Shown here: positions 22,696-35,911 of the stretch, piece after piece | Numbering within the stretch: position 1 is the first letter of the stretch | Layout: the number at the start of each line of letters is the position of its first letter | From: Pseudodonghicola flavimaris | Lineage (GTDB): Bacteria > Pseudomonadota > Alphaproteobacteria > Rhodobacterales > Rhodobacteraceae | Assembly: GCF_030164425.1 (NCBI RefSeq) | Contig: NZ_JASNJD010000003.1 | Span: forward strand, 248,001 to 312,000 | Length of the DNA: 64,000 nt | Direction: 5' to 3' | The notes under the pieces: model-generated | What the model was told of the DNA's origin: nothing | Databases searched by the model: none | What the model saw: only the letters and a program-made list of their open reading frames with translations | Position numbers and translations under genes: made by a program

Positions 22696-25600
22696 TCAGC
22701 TCGACACGTATCCGGCCACCACCTGCAACAGCTTGAACGCTGTGGCGGCGTCGTTTTCGACCACGGCGAGGAATTCCTCCTCGCCGATCCGCAGGCAGGT
22801 TAGCTCTGTCTCCGCCACCATCGACAGCGCGCGGGGCACCTTGCGGATCAGGCCCAGCTCGCCCACCAGCGTGCCGGGACCGACGCGGCTGATCAGCCGG
22901 CTCTCGCCCCCCTCCCGCGGCAGATAGAGCCCGGCCTCCCCCTCGATCACCATATAGGCACCATCCTTGGGCTGGTCGCCCTTGAGGAAGATCACCTCGC
23001 CCGCGCCGGCATGATACCAGCGCGCACCGAAGGCCAGCAGCCGCAGCTGCTTGCGGTTCAGCCCGGAGAACAGCGGCGTCTGCTCCAGCGCCCTGAGCTT
23101 GCGGGCCAGGTCGGCGCTGGCGCCGCTGTCCTGATCGGCCCCCTCTCCGGCGCCCTCGCTGACGATACGGCCCTGCCGCAGTTCGAAGAAACTGTCGAAA
23201 ATCCCGTCGTCCTCGAACCGGTCGGCCAGGCAGATCATCGTCGTCTGCGGCAGCAGCGCGCGCAGGTTGCGCAGCATCGGTGCCAGCGTCGCCGCATCGG
23301 TCGAAGCGAAGATCTGATCCAGGATCAGGATATCGGGTTTCTTGATCGTTGCGCGGCTGAAGGCCAGCGGTTCGGCATAGATCCCCGGCAGGTTCTGGCC
23401 GCCGATGGCGATCGGCAGATCATAGATCAGCTCGATCACCAAATCCTGGGCGCCATTGTCGGCCAGCACCCGGGCGATGATCTTGCGCAGTTCGTCGCCG
23501 CGGCTGCCGGCGGCATCGGAAATCTTGCCGAAAAGAGCGTTTTCCAGCACCGTGAAACCGGGGGCGAAGGCATCCCGCGACAGCGGCACGAACAGATCCC
23601 CCAGGCTCTGCAACAGCTCCGGCGCATGGCTGGCGCGAAGCTCCAGGATGCGCGCCTTCAGCTCATCGGAGAAGGCCGGGCCGATCTGTTCCGCCGAAAT
23701 CCGGAACGGCACCATCAGGAACAGCGCCATTTCCTGCTCGCTCAGCGCGGCGGCGCCGGCGTCGCGGGTCTTTTCCACCAGATCCAGCGCGGTTTCATAG
23801 GTCTGGCTGTCGATCCCCAGCTTGCGGAACAGCGGATGGTCAGTGCCGTCGATGCCGAAGATCCGCCGCAGCATGTCGATCACGTCGCGGGTCAGTTCGA
23901 CCAGCGTCTCATCCAACCCGAGCTGGCGCAGCTGGCCCATGAACCCGCTTTGTGCCGGCAGCAGCTCTGCCGTCACCGGGCGGCGCGGGGTCGCGAACAG
24001 CAGGTTTTCCCCCACCGGCAGCGCCGCGTTATAGCGGTCGCGACGACAGAGGTAGACATGCGCGCCCAGTCCGGCCTCTTCCACCGCCGCCTGCACCTTG
24101 GAACGCAGCTCCACCAGCCGCGCCGCCAGCTGTGGATGCTCCGCCTCGTCAAACTTCTGATCCAGCCCGCGCTGGAACATCGCCTCGGCCGCGCCCATGC
24201 CGCGCAACAGCTCCAGCCACCAGGCCCGCAGCGCCTCGGGGCTGTCACAGCCCGCCAGTCCCGGATCCAGCCAGTTGGCATCGAAGGGATCGGGGCTGTT
24301 GCCGGCCCGCAGCGCCTCGGCCGCATGCGGTGCGTCCTGCCCTTCCCCATGCGGCCGCTGCCGCACCGGCATCAGGACGTTGTCGCCGAAGCTGCCCTGG
24401 AACATCACCGGCCGGGCGCTGGCCAGACCGATCCGGGTGGCGATCACCGCCTGATGCAGGCCGCTCAGATCCAGATCGCCGATCCGCAGATGGCCACCGC
24501 TGGGTAGGAGCTCCCGGGTCAGCAGCTCGGCCAATGCCCGGCGGTCCTCCTCGCTCGGCGCGGCGATACCGATGGTGGTGCCGGAGGCCAGCGTCGCGGT
24601 CAGATCCTCCAGCACCATGTTGCCGTCGGCATCGCGCACCGTCACCCCGTCCAGCCGGATATCGCCGTCCAGATGCGGCAGGCTCTCCGGCTCTCCATCG
24701 AACAGCCGTTCCTCGACCATGCCGGCGGGGGCGAACCGCTCGGTGATCACCTCCCAGCGCAGCGACATGTCCTGGGTCTGGTTGTAATAGGTCAGGAGTT
24801 CCTTCCACGGGCTCGACAAATCCTTGTAGGCCGCCAGCGCCGCCACCAGCGCCCCCAGCGACACCGCGCCCTGGATCACCAGAAGACCGCCCACCGAATA
24901 GAAGAAGAACGGCGTAAGCTGGCCGATGAAGTTGTTGAGAAACTTCATGAAGAACTTCTTCTGGTAGATCTCGAAGCGGATGTCGTACAGCCGGCCCAGC
25001 TGTTCGGTGATCGCCGACATCCGATAGCGCCAGCCGCCGTTGACCCGGAGCGTGCTGGCGCCGGCCGCACTTTCGCCGATCGCCGCGGCCAGGGTGCGGA
25101 CCTCCTTGATCCGGGTCTTGTTCAACTGGTTGATCTGCCGCTGCAGCTTGGGGATCAGCCAGGCCTGCAGCGGGATCATCGCCACCGCGGCCACCCCGAA
25201 CCAGAAGCTCTGCAGGAACAGAAAGCCCAGGATGGTGATCATCTGGCCGGCCTGCAGCACCGGCTGACTGATCGCATCGCCCATCAGCCCGCCCATCGGC
25301 TCGCTCTCGGCGGTGATCATCGACACCAGTTCGCCCTGGCTGACCCGTTCGAAATAGGGCTGGGGGAAGCGCAGCACCCGGGCGATCAGCTGATAGCGGA
25401 ACCGCCGCAGCATGCGTTCCGACAACACCCCCTTCATGGTGTTGATCCGCATCTTCAGCAGACCATGCGCCAGAACCGCCACCAGAAAGCCCAGGCAAAG
25501 CAGCCCGAGGAAAGGCACCTGATCGAAGGTCACGCCCCAATAGGTGATCGTCTTGCTCTGCGAGCCGATGGCGTCGTTGATGATCCGCTTGGGCAGTTCC

Positions 25601-25764
25601 AGCGTCAGATAGAGCATCGGGAACAGCGTCGCTGTCACCACCAGCAAGATCAGCTGATCGCGCTTCGAATACTTCCAGATGAAGCGGAAGAGAGACGGTT
25701 CTATGGTCGGGATCCCCTGGCGGCGGGCGGAACGGTCATGGCGTTCCGCTACGATAGGCGGCAC
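22696..25764 (-). CDS. ABC-exporter-like protein with degenerate ATPase and C-terminal cyclic-nucleotide-binding domain
   Basis: About 1,022 residues from a GTG at 25764; the frame stays open to an ATG at 25845, but those residues look non-coding. Residues 30-330 form an ABC exporter membrane domain with about six helices. An ABC-type domain follows, but Walker A reads APSEEDRRA instead of GxxGxGKST, the signature is NLPGIY instead of LSGGQ, the Walker B glutamate is glutamine (ILDQIFASTD), and the H-loop histidine is aspartate (CLADRF). It is also split by an insert of roughly 300 residues. The last 120 residues form a Crp-like domain whose phosphate-binding cassette is well kept (GELGLIRKVPRA). 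ATP hydrolysis is unlikely; cAMP or cGMP binding is plausible. The adenylate cyclase encoded nearby is a possible source. Confidence 0.86.
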   Translation of the reverse strand: MPPIVAERHDRSARRQGIPTIEPSLFRFIWKYSKRDQLILLVVTATLFPMLYLTLELPKRIINDAIGSQSKTITYWGVTFDQVPFLGLLCLGFLVAVLAHGLLKMRINTMKGVLSERMLRRFRYQLIARVLRFPQPYFERVSQGELVSMITAESEPMGGLMGDAISQPVLQAGQMITILGFLFLQSFWFGVAAVAMIPLQAWLIPKLQRQINQLNKTRIKEVRTLAAAIGESAAGASTLRVNGGWRYRMSAITEQLGRLYDIRFEIYQKKFFMKFLNNFIGQLTPFFFYSVGGLLVIQGAVSLGALVAALAAYKDLSSPWKELLTYYNQTQDMSLRWEVITERFAPAGMVEERLFDGEPESLPHLDGDIRLDGVTVRDADGNMVLEDLTATLASGTTIGIAAPSEEDRRALAELLTRELLPSGGHLRIGDLDLSGLHQAVIATRIGLASARPVMFQGSFGDNVLMPVRQRPHGEGQDAPHAAEALRAGNSPDPFDANWLDPGLAGCDSPEALRAWWLELLRGMGAAEAMFQRGLDQKFDEAEHPQLAARLVELRSKVQAAVEEAGLGAHVYLCRRDRYNAALPVGENLLFATPRRPVTAELLPAQSGFMGQLRQLGLDETLVELTRDVIDMLRRIFGIDGTDHPLFRKLGIDSQTYETALDLVEKTRDAGAAALSEQEMALFLMVPFRISAEQIGPAFSDELKARILELRASHAPELLQSLGDLFVPLSRDAFAPGFTVLENALFGKISDAAGSRGDELRKIIARVLADNGAQDLVIELIYDLPIAIGGQNLPGIYAEPLAFSRATIKKPDILILDQIFASTDAATLAPMLRNLRALLPQTTMICLADRFEDDGIFDSFFELRQGRIVSEGAGEGADQDSGASADLARKLRALEQTPLFSGLNRKQLRLLAFGARWYHAGAGEVIFLKGDQPKDGAYMVIEGEAGLYLPREGGESRLISRVGPGTLVGELGLIRKVPRALSMVAETELTCLRIGEEEFLAVVENDAATAFKLLQVVAGYVSS

Positions 25765-25887: not shown

Positions 25888-26277
25888 TTGACCGCACCTA
25901 TCGGCACACTTCTGATCCTGCTCTGCCTGCTGCAGATCAAGCATATGTTTGCCGACTATTTCCTGCAGACGCCGCGAATGCTGTCGGGACGTGGCCAGTA
26001 TCTGCACCTGGGCCGGGCCGAACACGCCGGCGTGCACGCGCTCGGCTCGGTCATCGCGTTTCTGCTGGTCGGCGCGCCGCTGCCTTTCATCGTCGTCATC
26101 GTGATCCTCGAATGGATCCTGCATTTCCACATCGACTTCTGGAAAGCCCGGCAATGCGATCAGAAACAGCTCGACCCGTTCAAGCCCGCCTTCTGGCGCG
26201 CCTCTGGCGTCGATCAGGCACTGCATCAGTTCACCTATGTGGCAATGATCTGGGCCTGGGCCGAATTCGCGGTCTGA
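25888..26277 (+). CDS. DUF3307 family small membrane protein
   Basis: A 129-residue protein with three to four hydrophobic segments. DUF3307 features are the histidine/aspartate motif near the N terminus (IKHMFADYFLQTP), a paired histidine region (LGRAEHAGVHALGS), and LHFHIDFWKA; the regular H, D and H within membranes suggests metal binding or catalysis, but no function is established. A TTG start at 25888 has CCGGAG at ideal distance. It is divergent from the ABC-like gene and convergent with the cyclase gene, in the middle of the putative cyclic-nucleotide locus. Confidence 0.8.
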   Translation: MTAPIGTLLILLCLLQIKHMFADYFLQTPRMLSGRGQYLHLGRAEHAGVHALGSVIAFLLVGAPLPFIVVIVILEWILHFHIDFWKARQCDQKQLDPFKPAFWRASGVDQALHQFTYVAMIWAWAEFAV

Positions 26278-26384: not shown

Positions 26385-28112
26385 TCAGGCTTCGGCAACG
26401 GCCTGCCGCCGCAGCGAATAGACCGGCACCGGCTGCGCATAGCCCTTCAGCGTCACCGGCTCCAGCGGCGCGAAATCGACGCCCAGCAGCCCCTCTGCCG
26501 CCTCCCGCGTCGCCTGATCGATCAGCGCCTGCCCCGGCGCCGCCTTGGAACAAAGCCGCGAGGACAGGTTGACGGTCGATCCCAGCACGGTGAAATCCAT
26601 CCGCGACCGGGCCCCGGTGGCGCCCATCACCACCTCGCCCGAGGCGACGCCGATCCCCACATGCAGATTGTATTCGGGGAATTTGTCCAGCATCCGCTCC
26701 ATCGCCTCGGTGATCTCCAGCGCGCAGGCGGTGGCGCGCAGCTCCATCTCCTCGCCGTCGAACACCGCCACCAGCGCGTCGCCGACGAATTTGTCGACAT
26801 CGCCGCCGTGGCGCTCGACGATATCGGTCTGCACGTCGAAATAGCTGTTCAGCGCCTCGATCACCACTTCCGGCGGCACCCGTTCGGAAAACTCGGTATA
26901 GCCGCGGATATCGGTGAAGATGACCGATACCCGCCGCCGCGTGCCGCCCCGGTGCATGCCCTGCTCATCGGCGCTCTGGATGGCGGAGACCGTCCCGCGT
27001 GAGACGAATTTCATCAACTCCAGCCGTTCCCCCAGCTCGCCGATCATCCGGTTGAAGCGCCGCGCCAGATCTCCGATCTCGTCGCGCGCCCGCACCCCTT
27101 CGACCCGTGCGGAGAAATCCCCCTCCCCGACCTGTTCGGCCACCGCGCCGATCTTGAGGATCGGCAGGGTCAGCTGGCGGGCGAAGATCACCGCCCCCAT
27201 GCCGGCAATGACGAAGCCGACCAGGCCGACGATCAGGATGCGGCGGGTGATCGCGTTGACCACGGCATAGGCGCTCTCCTCGCTCAGCTCGGTGATCACC
27301 GCCCAGGGGAACCAGTCCGGAAAGGCATAGGCACCCAGCATCGCGGTGCCATCGGGACGCACATAGGGCTCCAGCGCCTCGGCGCGGGCGCCGGCCATGA
27401 TCAGCGGCTGCGCGGTGGCAACGATGTCGCGGTCGGTCAGCAGCGCCGGCGCATCGCTCAGCACCCGCCGCCCGGCCTGATCGATGATCGAGATCTCGCC
27501 CCGCTGGGCGAAGGGATGACGCCGCACCATATCGCCCAGGATCGACAGGTCGATCTTCGCCGCCATCGTCACCTGCCGCCCGGCGATCTTGCTGGTCAGC
27601 GGCACCGCCAGGGTGGCGATCCAGTCGTCGGTCTCCGGGATCCGGCTCACCACCGGGCGGCCGTACTGGCCAGTGGCGGCGATCGCTCGGATCAGGTCGG
27701 GCCTGGTCGACAGCACCGCCACCGGGTCCAGCCCGGCCTCCGACAGATGCTGTGCAAATCCTTCGTTGGTGACCAGGATCGGCAGGTCCGACCCCTCGAC
27801 CGACAGCTGCAGCGCCACCACCTGCGGCACCTGCTCCAGCCCCAGCGTCAGCAGCGAGACCTTCTGCTGCACCCCGAGGTCAGCACTGTCGATGCCGTTG
27901 CGGATCACTCTGAGCGGCGTCAGCCAGCGGCCCTCGAAAGTGGTGTCGAAAGCCGCCCGCAGTTCCGAGGCCACAGTGGCCAGATCCTCGTTCGCGGCGC
28001 TCTTCAGCTCGTCCCGGGTCAGCCGGGTCAGGTTCTGCCCGACCAGGACAAGCGGCGCCACGGCCAGCAGCGCGGCGAAAACGAAGAACTTGAGACGCAG
28101 AGGGAATCGCAT
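26385..28112 (-). CDS. Membrane adenylate cyclase, class III, with extracytoplasmic sensor and HAMP
   Basis: A 575-residue protein: TM1 at 9-25, a Cache-like extracytoplasmic domain (30-290), TM2 at 292-310, HAMP at 312-365, and a class III cyclase domain at 393-570. Metal aspartates are D401 (IFTDIRGY) and D445 (KFVGDALVAVF). Base-selecting residues are K441 and T508 (DFTVLGSTVNL), the Lys/Thr pair typical of ATP-using class IIIb enzymes; N515 and R519 stabilise the transition state. All catalytic positions are present, so it should be active. It is the last gene of a three-gene operon, 6 bp after the PKD gene, suggesting that its sensor reads something those envelope proteins report. Confidence 0.92.
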   Translation of the reverse strand: MRFPLRLKFFVFAALLAVAPLVLVGQNLTRLTRDELKSAANEDLATVASELRAAFDTTFEGRWLTPLRVIRNGIDSADLGVQQKVSLLTLGLEQVPQVVALQLSVEGSDLPILVTNEGFAQHLSEAGLDPVAVLSTRPDLIRAIAATGQYGRPVVSRIPETDDWIATLAVPLTSKIAGRQVTMAAKIDLSILGDMVRRHPFAQRGEISIIDQAGRRVLSDAPALLTDRDIVATAQPLIMAGARAEALEPYVRPDGTAMLGAYAFPDWFPWAVITELSEESAYAVVNAITRRILIVGLVGFVIAGMGAVIFARQLTLPILKIGAVAEQVGEGDFSARVEGVRARDEIGDLARRFNRMIGELGERLELMKFVSRGTVSAIQSADEQGMHRGGTRRRVSVIFTDIRGYTEFSERVPPEVVIEALNSYFDVQTDIVERHGGDVDKFVGDALVAVFDGEEMELRATACALEITEAMERMLDKFPEYNLHVGIGVASGEVVMGATGARSRMDFTVLGSTVNLSSRLCSKAAPGQALIDQATREAAEGLLGVDFAPLEPVTLKGYAQPVPVYSLRRQAVAEA

Positions 28113-28118
28113 GCGCGA

Positions 28119-31100
28119 TTATTGGCCCCGCGCCACCGCCTCCACAAGCGCCGTGTCACGGGTCACGCCGCAGGCCAGCCCGGAGGTATCGAGCGCCTCC
28201 ACCGTCACGGTATAGCTGCCGGGCGCCGCATAGCCGTGGCGCACCAGCGCGCCGGTGGCGGTGGCGCCATCGCCAAAGCTCCAGCTCAGCCGCAGGCCCT
28301 GGCCATCGGGATCGCTGGCGCCGGTGGCATCGAACAGCAGATCGTCATGCGCGCCGCCCACCGGCACCTGCCGGTCCGGGCCGGCATCGACCCGCGGCGG
28401 CGCATTGACCAGAATAGCCGCGGTGTCGCTGCCGATGTTGCATCCCGCCGCGCCGCTGTCGTCGGTCACCGTCAGCTGCACCCGCACCGCCGCGGGGCTG
28501 TCGAAGACCCGCTCCACCCGGCGGCCCTGCAATGTCACCCCGTCGCTGAACTGCCAGTCGAATCCGGTCAACGTGCCGTCCGGGTCGGTGGAGGGGCCGG
28601 CATCGAAGACCACGGTATCGCCCGGGCAGACCACCCGGTCGGGCCCCGCCAGCGCCAGCGGCGCCGCATTGACCCGGGCATAGACCTCCTGACTGCTGCG
28701 GCTGGAGATCAGGCCAGCGCCATCGTCCAGCGTTACATGCACCGGGAACAGGCCCGGGCGGTCGAACTGGTGGCGCACCTCTGCCCCGCTCAGCTGCTGG
28801 CCGTCGCCGAACACCCAGCGCGCCGCGACATCCGCCCCGGCGGCGACAGTCCAGTCCACCGGCTGCCCCGGACAGACCGCCGGCGGCGCTGCCAGATCGG
28901 CCACCGGCACCGGACGCACCGTCACCCGGCGGCTGAGGCTCACAGCGCTGTTCGACACCCCGGCCTCGTCGCGCACAGTCAGGCGCACGTCATAGGTCCC
29001 GGCAGTCTCGAACCGGTGCTCCGCCACCACGCCGCTGGCGCTGGCGCCATCGCCGAAGTCCCAGTCATAGCCGACGATGGCGCCATCGCTGTCGCGCGAC
29101 CCGCCGGCATCGAAGCGCACCGCCTGACCCGGCGCCAGCACCTCGGGGCCGGTGAAGGCCGGCACCGGCGGCGCATTCACCACCACCCGGTGGACCGTCT
29201 GCTGGCTGCCGCAGGCGCTGTCACCGCCCTCCAGCTCGGCCCGCAGCGTCACCAGATAGGCGCCGGGCTCGGTCCAGCTGTGGCGCACCTCGGCGCTCTC
29301 CGCCGTGGTGCCATCGCCAAAGTCCCAGATCAGCGCGCCGGCGACACCGCTGTCGATGCCGCTCAGCGTGGCGGTCAGGGCGGTCTCAACCCCGGCCGCG
29401 GCACGGGCCGGGGCAGAGATTTCCAGCGCTGGCGCCGGCAGCACCACCACCTCGGCGGTATCGGAATCGAGCGGGCTGCAGCTGCCCCGGGCGTCTCCGG
29501 TGATCGTCAGGGTCACGGTATAGGTGCCCGGCCGGGTGAAAACATGGGTCGGCGTCTCACCGCTGCCGGTGCCGCCATCGCCATAGGTCCAGCTAAAGGC
29601 GTTCACCGCCCCGTCCGCATCGGTCGAGCCAGAACCGTCGAACCGCAGCTGGCTGTTGGCGCAGACCCTGAGATCGGGGCCGGCATCGGCCAGCGGCCCT
29701 TCGCGCACCAGAACCGCGATCCGGTCCATATCGGTGCCATAGTCGGTACCGCTTTCGTTGCGCACCCTGAGAGTGACCGGAAAGACGCCGGGTCGCTCAT
29801 AGGTCTTGTTCGGATTGATCAGGTCGGAGCTGCTTCCATCGCCGAAGTCCCAGTCGTAGCGCAGCAACCCGCCATCGGGATCGCTGCTGGCGGAGGCATC
29901 GAACAGGATCGGCTGGCCGGAACAGATATCGCGGTTGCCGCCGGCATCTGCCACCGGCCGCGCCTTGATCCGCACGGTGGTGGAGTCGATTGCCCGCGCA
30001 TTGGACAGCCCGGTTCCGTCATCGACCTGCAGCGTCACCGGATAGAGCCCGGGTTTCTCATAGACATGCGTTGCCGTCTCGCCGAAGACCGGGGCGCTGC
30101 CATCGCCGAAATCCCAGCGATGGATCAACGCGTCGCCATCGGCGTCCGCCGATTGGCTGCCATCGAAGGCGACATAGAGCGATTCCGTCACGATCGGCGC
30201 CCCGGCCTCGGCGGTGGGGGCGTGGTTCACCCGGATCGTCACATCATCGCTGGCGGTGGCGTTCAGCACGCCGCTATCGTCGGTGACCACCAGCTGCGCC
30301 GACCACACGCCAGGCACCACATAGGCGCGTTCGACCTGCGGCGCATCCAGCGGCGCGCCGAGATCGTCGAACTGCCAGCGCCAGCCGGTCAGCGTTCCAT
30401 CCGGGTCATACGACTGGCTGGCGTCGAACCGCACGCTGTCGCCCGGCGCGATCAGCAGGTCCGGTCCGGCCACCGCCACCGGCGGCGCGTTGACGGTGAT
30501 CAGCACCTCGGCATCGTCCTGCGCCGCGCCGCCGCGGAAATCATCCGCCACGGTCAGCCCGATCCGATAGAGCCCGGGCTCCTGCAGCCGGTGCGACACT
30601 CGGACGCCCTCGGCGGTGCTGCCATCGGGAAACTGCCAGACATAGCGGCCGATCTGCCCGTCCGGATCGACCGAGGCGCCGCCCGACAGCACGAAGTCGG
30701 TGCCCGGCGCCACCACCTGGGCCGGGCCGGCATCGGCGATCGGGCTGGCGTTGATCACCACCCGCAGGGTGTCGCGGTCGACGTTCAGCGGCGCGCCGCT
30801 GTCGTCATGCACCCTCAGCGCCACCTCATAGCTGCCGGGCTTGGCATAGGCATGCGACACCTGCTGGCCGCTCGCCGTGGTGCCATCTCCGAAATCCCAG
30901 GACCAGCCGGTGACCTTGCCATCCGGATCGCTGGAGCCGCCGCCGTCGAACTGCACCACACTGGCGGTGACATATTGATCCGGGCCGGCATCCGCCGTCG
31001 GCGCCGCATCGACCCGCACCACCTGAGAGCTGCTCTGCAGTGCCGAGGCGGTGCCGCTGTCGTCGATCACCGTCAGTGTGACGTTGAAATTCCCCGGCCG

Positions 31101-32984
31101 GGTCCAGGCATAGGTGACCTTCTGGCCCTCACCGGTGGCGCCATCGCCGAAATCCCAGATATAGGACAGGATATGACCATCGGCGTCGCTGGACGCCGTC
31201 GCATCCAGCGTCACCGCCTCGGAAACCGACAGCGGCCGCTCCGGCGGGGCAAACACCGGCTGGGGCGGGGCATTGACCGCCACCCGCAACCGGTCCTGCG
31301 CCTGATTATTAGCGACCCCGCTGTCGTCGATGACGGTCAGCACCACGTCGAACCGGCCCGGGGTCTGATAGGCGTGGGTGACGGTCTGCCCTTGCAGCAC
31401 GGTGCCGTCGCCCATGTCCCAGACATAGGCATCGATCAACCCGTCGACATCATAGCTGGCCCCGGCGCTGACGCTGACCGGGCCGCCGATAACCGCCTGC
31501 TGATCGGCGCCGGCCTCGGCCACCGGGGGGAAGTTGACGACGACCCGGCGGGTCTCCACCCCGAAGTTGCAGGGATGGTTACTGTCATCCTCGACCCGCA
31601 GAACGGCGCGGAACTGGCCCGGCGTCTCATAGCTGTGCTGCGCCCGCGCACCTTCGGCCTGGGCCCCATCGCCGAAGCTCCAGCGATAGCGCACGATCGG
31701 ACTGTCGGAGGGCTGCGAGCCGCTGCCGTCGAAATCGAGCGGCTGCCCCGGCGCCACCACCACATCGCCGCCCGCCACCGCGATCGGCGCGTCGCGCACA
31801 TGCACCGGCAGGTCCACCGCCGCGCCACGGCCCGGACGGCTGCCGGGTTCCACCACTTCCAGCCGGGCGGTATAGCGGCCCGGCCCGTCATAGCGATGCG
31901 CGATCACCGGATCGGTCGAGCGGCTGCCATCGCCGAACTGCCACAGGTAGGACAGTGGCGTCAGCCCGGTGGTGCCGCTGGCATCGAAGGCCACGGAACG
32001 GCAGTCGGCCAGCGGCCGCGCCGTGGCGGCAATCACCGGGCGGCCCGGCTGCGGCGCCCGCACCGGCGGCATCTGCAGCGGCAGCGCCCGGCCCTCGGCG
32101 TCGAAAACCGCCATGGTCACATCGTTCGGCGTCTCGAACCCGCCCTGCAGGTTCAGCGCCAGATTGGTCTCATCGGTCTCGACACTGTCGGAGGTCCAGT
32201 AATCCTGGCCCGAATTGCGCATTGGCAGATCGGCGAAATCAGTGACCAGAGCCAGATCGCCATTGGCGCCGTCAAAGCTCTGCACCGTCAGGGTGCCCTT
32301 GCCCGGGCCGGTGAACTTCACCTGCGTCGGCGGATTGCCGGCGGCCCAGCGTACCGTCGGGCGATAGGCGAACATCTCCAGCCCCTCGGGGGCACGGTCG
32401 CGGTCGCGCAGCAGGCTGACCGACAGCGAATAGCCGTTGCCGTCGTTGCCTGCGGTGCCTTGCACGTCCAGCCGGAAATAGGCCCGGTCGCCGATCACCT
32501 CGCCCTGGCGGGCGCGCAGCGCGGTCAGCGTCACCCAGCGGCCATCGGTGGCCTTGTCGTTGCCCCAGGTCTTCTCACGGATCAGCTGGCCGGGTCCGGT
32601 GACCGGCTCGAACGGATACCGCTCGGCGCGGGCGCCATCGGTGACGGGCTGCGGCCGCTCCGCCGCGGAAAAGGCACCATCGCCCCCGAACAGCCGGAAG
32701 GTGGTTTCCGAATCGCCGCTGCCGCCATAGGTGAAATCCCCCGCGCCGCCGACCTCGGGATCGTAGATCCGAAGATAGACGCGGTCGGCCAGATCCGCCG
32801 GCAGGCTGAAGAAAATCTGCTCGCGATGGTCGACATCCCCCTCGCGGGTAGCAGCGCGATGGCCATAGACCACCAGCAACCCGTCTTCGGCGCGGGACGC
32901 CCCGGTCTGGGCGGAGAGGGCGGCCGGATCGGTCAGCAGAGCCAGCCCCAGCAGTGCCACCGTCCAGTTCCGTGCCTTACGCAT
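28119..32984 (-). CDS. Secreted protein with about 15 PKD domains
   Basis: A 1,621-residue protein with a Sec signal (MRKARNWTVALLGLALLTDP, likely cut after LSA). Residues 30-330 form a beta-rich non-repeat region (VYLRIYDPEVGGAGDFTYGG) of unknown type. From about residue 350 to the end run tandem PKD domains: I count 15 cores of the form WDFGDG or its variants (WQFGDG, WSFGDG, WDMGDG, WQFPDG, WQFDDL, WTYGDG, WVFGDG, WQFSDG), each about 80-95 residues and mostly preceded by ADAGPD-type linkers. PKD domains are Ig-like modules for protein or glycan contact. There is no membrane anchor, catalytic domain or sorting signal, so it is periplasmic or secreted. It lies between the LysM/FecR gene and the cyclase. 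Confidence 0.9.
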   Translation of the reverse strand: MRKARNWTVALLGLALLTDPAALSAQTGASRAEDGLLVVYGHRAATREGDVDHREQIFFSLPADLADRVYLRIYDPEVGGAGDFTYGGSGDSETTFRLFGGDGAFSAAERPQPVTDGARAERYPFEPVTGPGQLIREKTWGNDKATDGRWVTLTALRARQGEVIGDRAYFRLDVQGTAGNDGNGYSLSVSLLRDRDRAPEGLEMFAYRPTVRWAAGNPPTQVKFTGPGKGTLTVQSFDGANGDLALVTDFADLPMRNSGQDYWTSDSVETDETNLALNLQGGFETPNDVTMAVFDAEGRALPLQMPPVRAPQPGRPVIAATARPLADCRSVAFDASGTTGLTPLSYLWQFGDGSRSTDPVIAHRYDGPGRYTARLEVVEPGSRPGRGAAVDLPVHVRDAPIAVAGGDVVVAPGQPLDFDGSGSQPSDSPIVRYRWSFGDGAQAEGARAQHSYETPGQFRAVLRVEDDSNHPCNFGVETRRVVVNFPPVAEAGADQQAVIGGPVSVSAGASYDVDGLIDAYVWDMGDGTVLQGQTVTHAYQTPGRFDVVLTVIDDSGVANNQAQDRLRVAVNAPPQPVFAPPERPLSVSEAVTLDATASSDADGHILSYIWDFGDGATGEGQKVTYAWTRPGNFNVTLTVIDDSGTASALQSSSQVVRVDAAPTADAGPDQYVTASVVQFDGGGSSDPDGKVTGWSWDFGDGTTASGQQVSHAYAKPGSYEVALRVHDDSGAPLNVDRDTLRVVINASPIADAGPAQVVAPGTDFVLSGGASVDPDGQIGRYVWQFPDGSTAEGVRVSHRLQEPGLYRIGLTVADDFRGGAAQDDAEVLITVNAPPVAVAGPDLLIAPGDSVRFDASQSYDPDGTLTGWRWQFDDLGAPLDAPQVERAYVVPGVWSAQLVVTDDSGVLNATASDDVTIRVNHAPTAEAGAPIVTESLYVAFDGSQSADADGDALIHRWDFGDGSAPVFGETATHVYEKPGLYPVTLQVDDGTGLSNARAIDSTTVRIKARPVADAGGNRDICSGQPILFDASASSDPDGGLLRYDWDFGDGSSSDLINPNKTYERPGVFPVTLRVRNESGTDYGTDMDRIAVLVREGPLADAGPDLRVCANSQLRFDGSGSTDADGAVNAFSWTYGDGGTGSGETPTHVFTRPGTYTVTLTITGDARGSCSPLDSDTAEVVVLPAPALEISAPARAAAGVETALTATLSGIDSGVAGALIWDFGDGTTAESAEVRHSWTEPGAYLVTLRAELEGGDSACGSQQTVHRVVVNAPPVPAFTGPEVLAPGQAVRFDAGGSRDSDGAIVGYDWDFGDGASASGVVAEHRFETAGTYDVRLTVRDEAGVSNSAVSLSRRVTVRPVPVADLAAPPAVCPGQPVDWTVAAGADVAARWVFGDGQQLSGAEVRHQFDRPGLFPVHVTLDDGAGLISSRSSQEVYARVNAAPLALAGPDRVVCPGDTVVFDAGPSTDPDGTLTGFDWQFSDGVTLQGRRVERVFDSPAAVRVQLTVTDDSGAAGCNIGSDTAAILVNAPPRVDAGPDRQVPVGGAHDDLLFDATGASDPDGQGLRLSWSFGDGATATGALVRHGYAAPGSYTVTVEALDTSGLACGVTRDTALVEAVARGQ

Positions 32985-33038
32985 ATGTCATCCTCCGTTG
33001 ACCGCCGCCGCCAGGGCGCCCGGCCTGGTCCATCTGTC

Positions 33039-35381
33039 CTATTCGTATGCCGCGTTGCCGGCGTAGTCTTCGATCACCACTTCGATCAGCTCCAGCGCGC
33101 CGGGCTGCGGCGGCAGGCTGGCGCGACACAGGCCGGTGTCGCTGTCGCAGCGCAAAAAGCCCTGCACCTCCTCGCCGTCGATGGCGAGGATGAAGGGCGC
33201 CGCCTGCCGCAAGCCGCTGGCATCGCGCGCCTCCACCGTCAGCTCGATGGGGCCATTGGCCCCCTGACGGCCCAGATCGACCCGCACGACCTCCGGCGGA
33301 TCGAGATCGAGAAAACTGCTGAGCCGGGTGACCCCGACATTGCCCACCGCGTCCTGGGCCACCAGTTCCAGCCCGTTTTCGCCCGGCACCAGTTCGGTGG
33401 TGACGGTGAAACGCCCGTCAGCCAGGGGTAGCTCGGCCCCGTTCAGATCCAGCCGCACCGCATCGCCGGCGCTGCCGCTCAGCTGCAGCACCTCATCCGA
33501 AGTCACCCGCGGCGGCGGCATGTCCAGGCGAATCTCCGGCGCGGTGCCGTCGCGGATCACCGAGAATTCCTGTTGCCCCTCGACCGTGCCGCCGGGGGCC
33601 AGAACCTCGATCACATAGCCGCGCAGCGCCTCTTCCGCCGGCACCGAGAAGGTCAGCGCCCCGGCGGGCCCGACCTGACTGCGCAGAACCTCCGTGCCGC
33701 TGTCGTCACGCACCACGATGGCCGCGCCCTCCTCCGCCGTAGCGGTGCCGGTCACCGTCAGCATATCGGTGCGCGTCGCCAGCGCCGTGCCGACCCGGGG
33801 CAGGCTGCCCGCGAGCACGATCCGCACCTCCGCCGCCGGCCGGTAGGTCACTGTCAGGCTGCGCTGGCTGCGGTTGCCGGCCGGGTCAACCGCAGCCACC
33901 TCGATCCGGTTCGGGCCCGGTGCCAGCGACAGGCTGGACAGGAACGACCCGTCTGCCCCCAGTTCCAGCGGTGCGCCGTTCAGCGCCACCGTCGCCTCCA
34001 TCTCGGAGGCCCCCAGCACCTCCACCGTCGGGGTGGTAACCAGACTGTCCGCCGCCGGCGACATCAGCGCCAGGAACGGCGGCGTGGTATCGACCCGCAG
34101 AGTGAAATCGCGCGGCAGGCTCCAGGCTCCGGGCAGCCCCAGCGCATCCAGCGCCGCGATCCGCCAGTGATACCGGCCAGGCTCCAGCCCGATGGCGGTG
34201 AAGGACGGTTCACCGATGCCCCATTCCGAGAGCTGCATTTCGTTGAACCCCGGATCGGCCGCGATCTCCAGCCAGTAGCCACGGGCCGCGTCCAGCGGCG
34301 CCCAGCTCAGCGGCGCCTCCGCGGTATAGAGGATCGCCCCCGGCGCCGGCGCGTTCAGCACCGGACCGGGCAGCACCTCGGCCCGCTGCGCCCCGGCGGT
34401 GGTCAGCACCACGCCCTCGTTCTGGCCCACGGTCAGATTTTCGCCATTGCGGGCGATCTGCAGCCCCGGCGCATCGTAATTGACGAAACGCGCCCCGCTC
34501 TTGTCGTTCTTGATCCAGAAGTCGGCCGAGCTGGTGGTGGTCTCGATCCCTGGCACCTCGATCTCGAATTCGGTCTTGCCCGACAGCTGGTTCAGCAGCG
34601 CATAGAAATCCCCCTCCGCCAGCGACACTTTGGTCACCTCGGTGCCGGTCAGCGGGTCCGAGCGCATGCGCTGAATGGTGGCGTTGGAATTCGGGTTCAG
34701 CCGCAGCCGGCTGAGGTCACGGAAGGTGACCTGAGTGGTCGAATTCGACAGCGTCCGCAGCTTTTCGAACTCCACCAGAATGTCGTTCAGCAACCGGCCC
34801 GACCAGCTCTGCTCCGACGGCGTCCGCCCCTCGACCTGCCCCTGCACGTCCGAGACCACCGCCTCGGCCGACCGGTCGCGCTGCGCCACCGAGATCGCCA
34901 GCGCCTCCCGCGCGAAATCCGAGGCGACGCCGGCCAGGTTCACCACCTGCCGCCATTCGCCCTGCTCCCGGCGCGAGATTGCATCGTCGCGGTTGTCGAT
35001 GGCCTGCCCGATCTCGGTCGGGGCGAAGATGCGGGCGCCTTCGGCATTGGCCTTCTGGATTTCCTGCAGCGCCGCAAGCAGCGCGTGATCCGCCGCCATC
35101 ACCTGCCGCACCGGCAGCGACAGCTCGGTCCCCGGCAACAGATCGGCGGGCGAGGCGATGTTATTCAGCGCCAGAACCACCGGCCACAGATCAGGATCAT
35201 GCAGGTATTTCGCCACCAGCCCGCGCAACGTGTCGGAGCCAGAGAATTGCACCCGCTCCAGCGGCGCATCCATCGGATCGAGTTCCGCCCCGCCCGAGCC
35301 GGGACCGGCCAGCATCGTGATACAGGCCGCCAGAACCGCCAGAAGCGGGCCCGCCGATATCCTGAATCTGGCCAATCGCAC
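33039..35381 (-). CDS. LysM/FecR-domain envelope protein with Ig-like repeats
   Basis: About 780 residues from a GTG at 35381 with GGAG seven bases upstream (TTG starts at 35387 and 35435 are alternatives). A signal sequence (LLAVLAACITMLAG) includes LAAC, so it could be a lipoprotein or an ordinary Sec substrate. A LysM-like peptidoglycan-binding domain follows (GSDTLRGLVAKYLHDPDLW to LLPGTELSLP, residues 44-92), then a helical part, a FecR-like domain (FVNYDAPGLQIARNGENLTVG and VVLTTAGAQ), a fibronectin-like segment (YWLEIAADPGFNEMQ) and several bacterial Ig-like modules (GPNRIEVAAVDPAGNRS, GENGLELVAQDAVGNVG). First gene of the operon; it probably sits on the cell wall. Confidence 0.87.
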   Translation of the reverse strand: MRLARFRISAGPLLAVLAACITMLAGPGSGGAELDPMDAPLERVQFSGSDTLRGLVAKYLHDPDLWPVVLALNNIASPADLLPGTELSLPVRQVMAADHALLAALQEIQKANAEGARIFAPTEIGQAIDNRDDAISRREQGEWRQVVNLAGVASDFAREALAISVAQRDRSAEAVVSDVQGQVEGRTPSEQSWSGRLLNDILVEFEKLRTLSNSTTQVTFRDLSRLRLNPNSNATIQRMRSDPLTGTEVTKVSLAEGDFYALLNQLSGKTEFEIEVPGIETTTSSADFWIKNDKSGARFVNYDAPGLQIARNGENLTVGQNEGVVLTTAGAQRAEVLPGPVLNAPAPGAILYTAEAPLSWAPLDAARGYWLEIAADPGFNEMQLSEWGIGEPSFTAIGLEPGRYHWRIAALDALGLPGAWSLPRDFTLRVDTTPPFLALMSPAADSLVTTPTVEVLGASEMEATVALNGAPLELGADGSFLSSLSLAPGPNRIEVAAVDPAGNRSQRSLTVTYRPAAEVRIVLAGSLPRVGTALATRTDMLTVTGTATAEEGAAIVVRDDSGTEVLRSQVGPAGALTFSVPAEEALRGYVIEVLAPGGTVEGQQEFSVIRDGTAPEIRLDMPPPRVTSDEVLQLSGSAGDAVRLDLNGAELPLADGRFTVTTELVPGENGLELVAQDAVGNVGVTRLSSFLDLDPPEVVRVDLGRQGANGPIELTVEARDASGLRQAAPFILAIDGEEVQGFLRCDSDTGLCRASLPPQPGALELIEVVIEDYAGNAAYE

Positions 35382-35911
35382 TTGCAAACTCCGCTCCCTC
35401 GAACCGATTGAGGTGGCTCGCCCCTTGTTTTCCAAATCTTCCGTAAGGTCAAATCATCACGCAAGGAAATTCGCACGCGCCGCTGCGACCGCCGGGAAAC
35501 GACAATACTGCCCCGACAAAACCGGCGCGCCCGTGCGATTGTCCTTTCCTCCCGAACAATCGACGGGGTCTTTGTCAGCCCGGCGCCTCCCTCCCCCGTG
35601 GCGTTCATCGACCGGAACCGGACGCCTCCACGCGGGTGTTCAGAAAGAGTTTACCCCGAAAATCAGAGACTTGAAAAGTTTTCCGAAAAAACTTCGAAAT
35701 CGAGCGACGGAACCCCGTCCCGCCTGCGTATGACCAAGTGGCGTTTATCGCCACCGTCACCCATCCCCGGTTCACCCCCACTCACGGAACCGCACGACCT
35801 CCTGGTCACGGGGGTGGGTGACATCCGCGGCCAGGGAGGGGCATTCCCCGATGACCGCCAGAAGGCAGGCATCGCCCCTCCCGGCCGCATCTTGCCAACC
35901 CGCGATCCCGG
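35382..35911. other. Intergenic region upstream of the LysM/PKD/cyclase operon
   Basis: These 530 bases hold no gene that I can support. The part near 35640-35710 is less GC-rich than the surroundings and contains a 7-bp inverted repeat AAGTTTT-CCGAA-AAAACTT (35676-35694). The promoter of the minus-strand operon must lie here; TTGCGT and TTGACC hexamers occur near 35445-35465 on the minus strand but without convincing -10 partners. Confidence 0.5.

Follow-up and report, generated by a model that had tools for sequence, protein, structure and literature searches.

FecR-domain proteins have been described in the vicinity of membrane sensors before. In B. contaminans and relatives, the BiofilmReg operon encodes a response regulator, a LysM-FecR protein (COG4254), a CHASE2 histidine kinase and a DUF4136 protein (PMC5192318). 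In S. meliloti, the FecR protein SMc02177 is encoded near the CHASE2 adenylate cyclase CyaD1; there, the CyaD/Clr cAMP pathway has SMc02177 among its targets, and signal perception does not require the protein (PMC5498481). Which way signalling runs can therefore not be presumed for the locus described here either. In view of both reports, the statement in an earlier note on this DNA that no pathway of its composition had been described is too strong. A search of open-access papers for the exact composition (PKD and FecR together with adenylate cyclase or LysM) found none.

The locus lies in a stretch of 64,000 nucleotides of Pseudodonghicola flavimaris DNA, which is called the window here. 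Three minus-strand genes, referred to below as the trio (Table 1), lie where the earlier note had placed them, separated by 54 bp (FecR-PKD) and 6 bp (PKD-cyclase). The trio is flanked in the window by DUF3307, ABC/cNMP and GST genes, and no response regulator gene is found among the called genes around it. The promoter-like element upstream of the FecR gene aligns in most of 16 near relatives, and a TTNCTTG core is present within 300 bp in 22/51 loci.

Table 1. Coordinates of the trio and of associated features in the window
Feature	Coordinates	Strand	Remarks
Promoter-like element CTTGCG-N18-GAAGAT	35436..35465	-	Upstream of FecR gene; consensus match only
LysM-FecR-FN3/Ig gene	33039..~35381	-	First of trio; GTG start; frame open to 35435
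15-PKD protein gene	28119..32984	-	Middle of trio; 1,621 aa
N-terminal non-PKD region of PKD protein	32010..32906	-	Residues ~27-325; conserved, all-beta
Membrane class III cyclase gene	26385..28112	-	Last of trio; 575 aa
DUF3307 small membrane protein gene	25888..26277	+	Antisense, between cyclase and ABC/cNMP genes; Pfam DUF3307 6e-10
ABC-exporter-like protein gene (ABC/cNMP)	22696..25764	-	Outside trio; Pfam ABC_membrane 9.7e-19, cNMP_binding 1.7e-16

Three independent queries against 298 genomes of Rhodobacteraceae, roughly one for each genus, found all three genes in the identical 17 genomes, a distribution that places the arrangement far beyond chance; the remaining genomes of the set hold no orthologue of any of them. 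Among the GTDB-scan loci with enough contig around the trio, 46 of 48 carry it complete and in order, and the other two have internal deletions. Junctions range from -4 to 156 bp, with many overlaps of 1 or 4 bp, and FecR orthologues always adjoin the PKD gene. The pairwise distances of the FecR, PKD and cyclase proteins correlate at 0.91-0.96. Divergence is deep (down to ~50% identity) and the flanking genes vary; despite this divergence, the genes keep their order, orientation and short gaps, and the proteins their catalytic residues, PKD domain number and cysteine pairs. The trio is one conserved, all-or-none, single-copy, operon-like module, and the linkage is very strong. What the earlier note had named as speaking against a joint unit, homologues of each gene occurring mostly without the others, was looked for and is not the case within Rhodobacteraceae.

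The protein encoded first, numbered here from the 798-aa open frame beginning at 35435, has a LysM region at about 56-110, a FecR domain at 225-315, an FN3-like part at 360-445 and Glucodextran_B and Big Ig domains at 453-790. The FecR half of its earlier identification as LysM/FecR is confirmed by a Pfam match above cut-off (2.8e-8, along with Glucodextran_B/Big_6 Ig domains), and the domain is present in 26/26 orthologues. Pfam alone calls no LysM in the window protein and only one among the 26 orthologues (E 0.0049), but a profile-profile alignment (hhalign) with bona fide outside LysM-FecR proteins (99.3%, E 7e-21) spans the LysM region. The protein can be assigned as COG4254-like, with LysM followed by FecR in one predicted exported protein. 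Weak FecR-like matches in three other Rhodobacteraceae genomes (G464, G389, G472) were rejected: they are ~773-aa proteins from unrelated neighbourhoods, aligned only in the FN3-like part and not COG4254.

The second protein consists of a signal peptide, an all-beta N-terminal region (~30-325) and 15 PKD domains. Pfam marks 15 stretches as PKD_4 (PF18911; E=0) and 15 as PKD (PF00801); the domains are repeated PKD beta-sandwiches with a WxFGDG-type motif, their cores spaced 82-91 residues apart, mostly 87. The earlier description "almost wholly PKD" holds for these 15 domains but not for the ~300 residues at 27-325, a separate conserved all-beta region with a predicted structure of pLDDT 87. 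This region is known from the PKD-protein gene only and from Rhodobacteraceae only: a survey of 249 genomes from the phylum found it in two, which both belong to Rhodobacteraceae, and in the family set of 298 it occurs in 17. A PDB search with it, by sequence and by fold, gave no confident match. Across orthologues the protein measures 1,586-1,631 aa, and 178 of 180 PKD domains are orthologous by position. Ten cysteines are arranged as five pairs at regular spacing, and the two members of a pair are lost together; this points to disulfides joining neighbouring PKD domains and to a stapled rod of fixed length with five predicted inter-domain disulfides. To our knowledge, an invariant domain number and stapled joints are unusual for tandem-repeat exported proteins; they suggest that the physical length of the rod matters. 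On the plus strand opposite the PKD gene, an ORF of 1,971 aa was dismissed as a high-GC open-frame artefact, because its open length tends to drop with GC among orthologues.

The cyclase comprises TM1, a dCache-like sensor (~30-280), TM2, HAMP (310-360) and the catalytic domain (394-565). Pfam recognises HAMP (7.6e-14) and Guanylate_cyc (1.5e-19), while dCache_1 is sub-threshold both here (3.5e-4) and in 14/26 orthologues. The order of predicted secondary structure in the sensor region fits dCache, with weak matches to chemoreceptor models; no CHASE2 match was obtained with Pfam, orthologues included. The catalytic set that the earlier note had read as complete is indeed present in the window protein (metal-binding D401/D445, substrate-binding K441/T508, transition-state N515/R519), and its residues are kept in 46-48 of 48 orthologues. 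K441/T508 is the adenylate-type pair, which predicts ATP as the substrate. By Foldseek, the catalytic domain matches CyaB/CyaC with probability 1.00 and TM scores of 0.75-0.85 normalised by target. The genome holds at least 12 cyclase matches, so that a distinct cAMP output from the trio would need insulation.

The earlier note had proposed that the two envelope proteins pass their state through the cyclase as cAMP. One conserved module with short or overlapping junctions stands behind this proposal, whereas it is by composition alone, two predicted exported proteins and a transmembrane cyclase, that a sensor from envelope to cAMP is suggested. We lean, by a little, towards regarding the trio as a co-inherited operon-like unit for envelope sensor signalling through cyclic AMP. 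We infer export, peptidoglycan binding, three-way contact, the direction of signalling, the cAMP product and the thing sensed as follows. The LysM-FecR-Ig protein would be bound to peptidoglycan in the periplasm. The 15-PKD protein would be exported as a stiff rod of fixed length, anchored in or on the envelope via its N-terminal region or the FecR/Ig protein. The dCache-HAMP-cyclase may then use its extracytoplasmic domain to sense the assembly's state, or a ligand that the assembly controls, and alter cAMP synthesis inside. We favour the envelope sensor because the trio is all-or-none, adjacent and kept in order with conserved catalytic residues and correlated protein distances; because a dCache-like sensor lies between two TM helices and is followed by HAMP; because homologues of the LysM-FecR protein in other Pseudomonadota adjoin membrane sensors whose outputs are interchangeable; and because the Lys441/Thr508 pair is of the adenylate type and the fold matches CyaB and CyaC. 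As a more specific and rather improbable version, the rod, partly disulfide-stapled and seated on peptidoglycan-bound FecR, could act as a molecular ruler that gauges envelope distance or tension, for example from wall to outer membrane or from cell to surface, with the cyclase converting the reading into cAMP.

The two predicted exported proteins may instead be the output of the pathway. Small molecules are the usual ligands of dCache domains, and the cyclase might accordingly respond to one without the FecR and PKD proteins; these would form a surface structure under cAMP control, such as an adhesin or matrix rod, and co-transcription would reflect co-regulation. PKD arrays are frequent in surface and matrix proteins, and a 15-domain rod, longer than the periplasm is wide, need not contact the cyclase. 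The position of SMc02177 as a cAMP-pathway target dispensable for perception (PMC5498481) is consistent with such an arrangement. The upstream region argues the other way, as Clr- and CRP-type boxes do not exceed the chance rate: in 51 loci, the 500 bp preceding the trio contain no perfect Clr box (TGTTN8AACA), one-mismatch Clr boxes occur at about the rate of shuffled sequence, and no perfect CRP-type site lies upstream of the operon. Moreover, the cyclase is tied to both proteins over 17 genera in a strict, stoichiometric and all-or-none manner, which exceeds what co-regulation needs. The outside LysM-FecR genes examined have CHASE2-HK and CHASE2-GGDEF-EAL neighbours; the sensors paired with FecR relatives have outputs of three types, which is easier to reconcile with a role as sensor partner than as regulated product. 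We consider the output reading possible but doubtful.

The neighbouring ABC/cNMP protein, with a degenerate-looking nucleotide-binding domain and a C-terminal cyclic-nucleotide-binding domain, is a candidate effector of the trio, and the trio might control this protein in a local circuit, where it would respond directly to cAMP and move an envelope component by export or flipping. Its gene lies downstream at 26/50 trio loci, with the DUF3307 gene in the same place in most of these, a homologue exists in 18/18 trio genomes tested, and in G099, an unrelated genome, an ABC/cNMP gene is preceded at 91 bp by a cyclase gene of the same strand. Such a circuit nevertheless seems unlikely to us: the family occurs without the trio in G044, G028, G056 and G009, G012 has the trio without it, the DUF3307 gene intervenes in antisense, and Walker A and B look degenerate. 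Acquisition of the trio as one block without common function would fit the patchy 17/298 distribution through block gain or loss. It was rejected as very improbable on the grounds of deep conservation: no trio gene is found alone in the sampled genomes, and at identities down to ~50% and among changing flanks the trio retains its order, orientation and gaps as well as its catalytic residues, PKD domain number and paired cysteines.

Whichever way the signal runs, the trio is a clean case of obligate co-inheritance of two predicted exported proteins and a transmembrane cyclase in some marine Rhodobacteraceae. Carriers such as Shimia, Sulfitobacter mediterraneus, Falsiruegeria and Antarcticimicrobium allow a direct genetic test of envelope-protein input to a cyclic-nucleotide signal. 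The design of a LysM-FecR periplasmic partner with a membrane sensor is tied neither to CHASE2 nor to kinases.

Compared with the BiofilmReg operon, the trio shares a homologous LysM-FecR-FN3 predicted exported protein immediately next to a sensor that spans the membrane and has an extracytoplasmic domain, a type in which the output domain is exchangeable among taxa. Its sensor is a dCache-HAMP-cyclase rather than a CHASE2-kinase; it lacks the response regulator and DUF4136, and the 15-PKD gene lies between the FecR and sensor genes. CyaD1 resembles the trio by domains and neighbourhood: in both cases, in an alphaproteobacterium, the gene for a FecR-domain protein lies close to that of a receptor-like membrane cyclase of adenylate type, predicted as such in the trio. 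In contrast, CyaD1 carries CHASE2, and its system has no PKD protein and includes Clr and SMc02178. The class IIIb cyclases CyaC of Spirulina platensis and CyaB of Pseudomonas aeruginosa have the catalytic fold and the Lys/Thr pair in common with the trio cyclase, which differs in its N-terminal dCache-HAMP transmembrane receptor and its two operon partners. PKD-array surface and matrix proteins (S-layer, adhesin, hydrolase linkers) use tandem PKD domains as an extended exported stalk, whereas the trio protein has an invariant domain number and order, five predicted inter-domain disulfides and an N-terminal region peculiar to it; it contains neither a catalytic nor a sorting domain and is obligately linked to a cyclase. 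A LysM-FecR protein beside a membrane sensor is therefore already known; what is new in the trio is the dCache cyclase as its partner and the obligate PKD rod.

The three genes of the predicted operon, encoding a LysM-FecR-Ig protein (FecR), a 1,621-aa protein with 15 PKD domains (PKD) and a 575-aa cyclase, lie where the earlier note had placed them, with gaps of 6 and 54 bp, and the same three are selected by a gene caller based on codon usage, whose training set of local genes included the trio. Within the trio the minus strand yielded no terminator-like site, and a promoter-like element, CTTG-N18-GAAGAT, is present immediately upstream of the predicted operon; its TTNCTTG core recurs in 22 of 51 loci. 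Pfam matches were obtained for the FecR, 15 PKD and class III cyclase domains that had been read from the sequence, and also for Glucodextran_B/Big Ig domains and HAMP. LysM received no Pfam call in the FecR protein of the window and a weak match in one of 26 orthologues. The LysM label is supported, since a profile built from these 26 orthologues can be aligned to that of seven LysM-FecR proteins from elsewhere (99.3%, E 7e-21) over LysM, FecR and FN3.

Positions of the trio and of associated features in the window
Feature	Positions	Strand	Remarks
Cyclase	26385-28112	minus	open frame
PKD	28119-32984	minus	open frame
FecR	33039-35435	minus	open frame; GTG start probably at 35381
ABC-exporter-like protein with C-terminal cyclic-nucleotide-binding domain (ABC/cNMP)	22696-25764	minus	
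Antisense frame	27516-33431	plus	1,971 aa; antisense to entire PKD gene

Independent queries with the sensor region of the cyclase, with the N-terminal region of PKD and with the full FecR profile were run on the same 298 Rhodobacteraceae genomes, about one per genus and one genome per species. All three match the identical 17 genomes, in single copy and with the genes adjacent; thus the genes do not occur mostly apart, the pattern which the earlier note had named as refuting its proposal. In one genome (G522) the trio is divided among contigs, and nine further genomes gave weaker, short and partial matches to the FecR profile. Of 249 genomes sampled from the phylum, one per species, two have the PKD N-terminal region, both of them Rhodobacteraceae. 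GTDB was scanned with the FecR profile through DNA patterns specific to the trio's subfamily, which makes the scan informative on co-occurrence rather than on distant relatives. The 50 loci returned all carry the titles of Rhodobacteraceae genera or of unclassified alphaproteobacterial bins. The order FecR-PKD-cyclase and the orientation are kept in 46 of them, a count inflated by close relatives, which affect the 17/298 result less. Two of the other four run into contig ends and two are internally deleted, which could reflect gene decay or misassembly: L106 (10001-12070) has no PKD and fused remnants of FecR and cyclase, and L107 (10001-13104) has an intact cyclase with truncated FecR and PKD. 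Junctions range from -4 to 156 bp, many being -1 or -4, and protein lengths are near-constant (PKD, 1,586-1,631 aa); in L094, from a metagenome assembly, the frame is broken. The evolutionary distances measured for each of the three proteins correlate at 0.91-0.96, partly through shared species history.

The fifteen predicted PKD domains do not behave as a fluid array of repeats. Core-to-core spacing is 82-91 residues, mostly 87, and in the twelve most diverged orthologues the same-numbered domain of the window's PKD protein is the best match for 178 of 180 domains. Mean identity in this comparison is 56%, versus 35% among different domains within one protein, and 11 of the 15 positions, cut at the window-protein boundaries, have a single exact length throughout 47 orthologues. 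Just ten cysteines are present in the mature protein (328, 472, 1021, 1108, 1169, 1258, 1371, 1453, 1515 and 1605), each at a position that 42-47 of 47 orthologues conserve. When an early cysteine of one domain is matched with a late cysteine of the next, five pairs result, with spacings of 144-152 residues. Joint losses support this pairing: four orthologues lack both 1108 and 1258, and these four plus L098 lack both 1453 and 1605, with the domain-mates 1169 and 1515 retained. We infer disulfide staples linking domains 1-2, 9-10, 10-11, 13-14 and 14-15, which would stiffen the joints and imply an oxidising, exported location. An Ig-like domain is roughly 4 nm long. The rod would then measure some 50-60 nm and, being longer than the periplasm is wide, probably runs along the envelope or extends out of it. 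The N-terminal 300 residues are confidently predicted as all-beta domains (pLDDT 87, from 26 related sequences), with no confident match in the PDB. The antisense frame looks like a composition artefact, a drop in GC tending to shorten it in orthologues.

The cyclase consists of TM1, a dCache-like domain, TM2, HAMP and the catalytic domain. The dCache-like call is below the Pfam threshold and is consistent with the order of the strands in the structure prediction, which likewise used 26 related sequences, and with weak Foldseek matches to models of chemoreceptors. All six catalytic residues listed in the earlier note are present and conserved in 46-48 of 48 orthologues, including Lys441 and Thr508, the adenylate-type, class IIIb-like substrate pair known from CyaC-type enzymes, some of which respond to bicarbonate. 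At least 12 class III cyclase matches occur in the home genome, so this is a single dedicated cyclase among many.

On sequence grounds, the best-supported reading is that the trio would act as an envelope-state sensor with cAMP as its output. Its strongest rival reverses the direction, the cyclase regulating the exported FecR and PKD proteins. A Sinorhizobium meliloti protein with a FecR domain, SMc02177, shares a chromosomal neighbourhood with CyaD1, an adenylate cyclase carrying CHASE2, and with Clr, a cAMP regulator; it is a target of the CyaD1/Clr cAMP pathway and is dispensable for perception (PMC5498481).

A local circuit of the trio with the nearby ABC/cNMP protein is a possibility. Of 50 loci, 26 have the ABC/cNMP gene downstream of the trio, although an antisense DUF3307 gene separates them; each of the 18 trio genomes tested has a homologue (with just 31% identity in two of them), but the family is more widespread than the trio. 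In genome G099, from an unrelated family, an ABC/cNMP gene has a cyclase gene directly upstream, at a distance of 91 bp. In the window's ABC/cNMP protein the nucleotide-binding domain is apparently degenerate, with GIAAPSEEDRRAL in place of Walker A and a Walker B ending in LILDQ. The home genome carries a 52% identical paralogue elsewhere (G000:C55), and the family is found throughout the class, as two separate genes in some families. DUF3307 lies upstream of FecR in G012 (L044, G012:C14, 11183-14026), with ABC/cNMP absent nearby, and adjoins the ABC/cNMP gene in G028 (L046, G028:C91, 8311-11875), where the trio is absent; DUF3307 therefore borders both.

The trio fits a recognisable design, a LysM-FecR protein plus a membrane sensor with exchangeable output, because LysM-FecR proteins elsewhere also adjoin membrane sensors, as in BiofilmReg, and a FecR-domain protein is encoded in the CyaD1 neighbourhood. 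The LysM-FecR-FN3 layout is also found in several genomes outside Rhodobacteraceae, and a CHASE2 membrane sensor is its neighbour in all seven in which the neighbour was successfully scanned, with a histidine kinase output in six and PAS-GGDEF-EAL in one. LysM-FecR beside a CHASE2 sensor is a described arrangement in the Burkholderia contaminans BiofilmReg operon, whose response-regulator mutant forms no biofilm (PMC5192318). The trio does not belong to the BiofilmReg type, having neither CHASE2 nor a response regulator, and it adds an obligate PKD rod.
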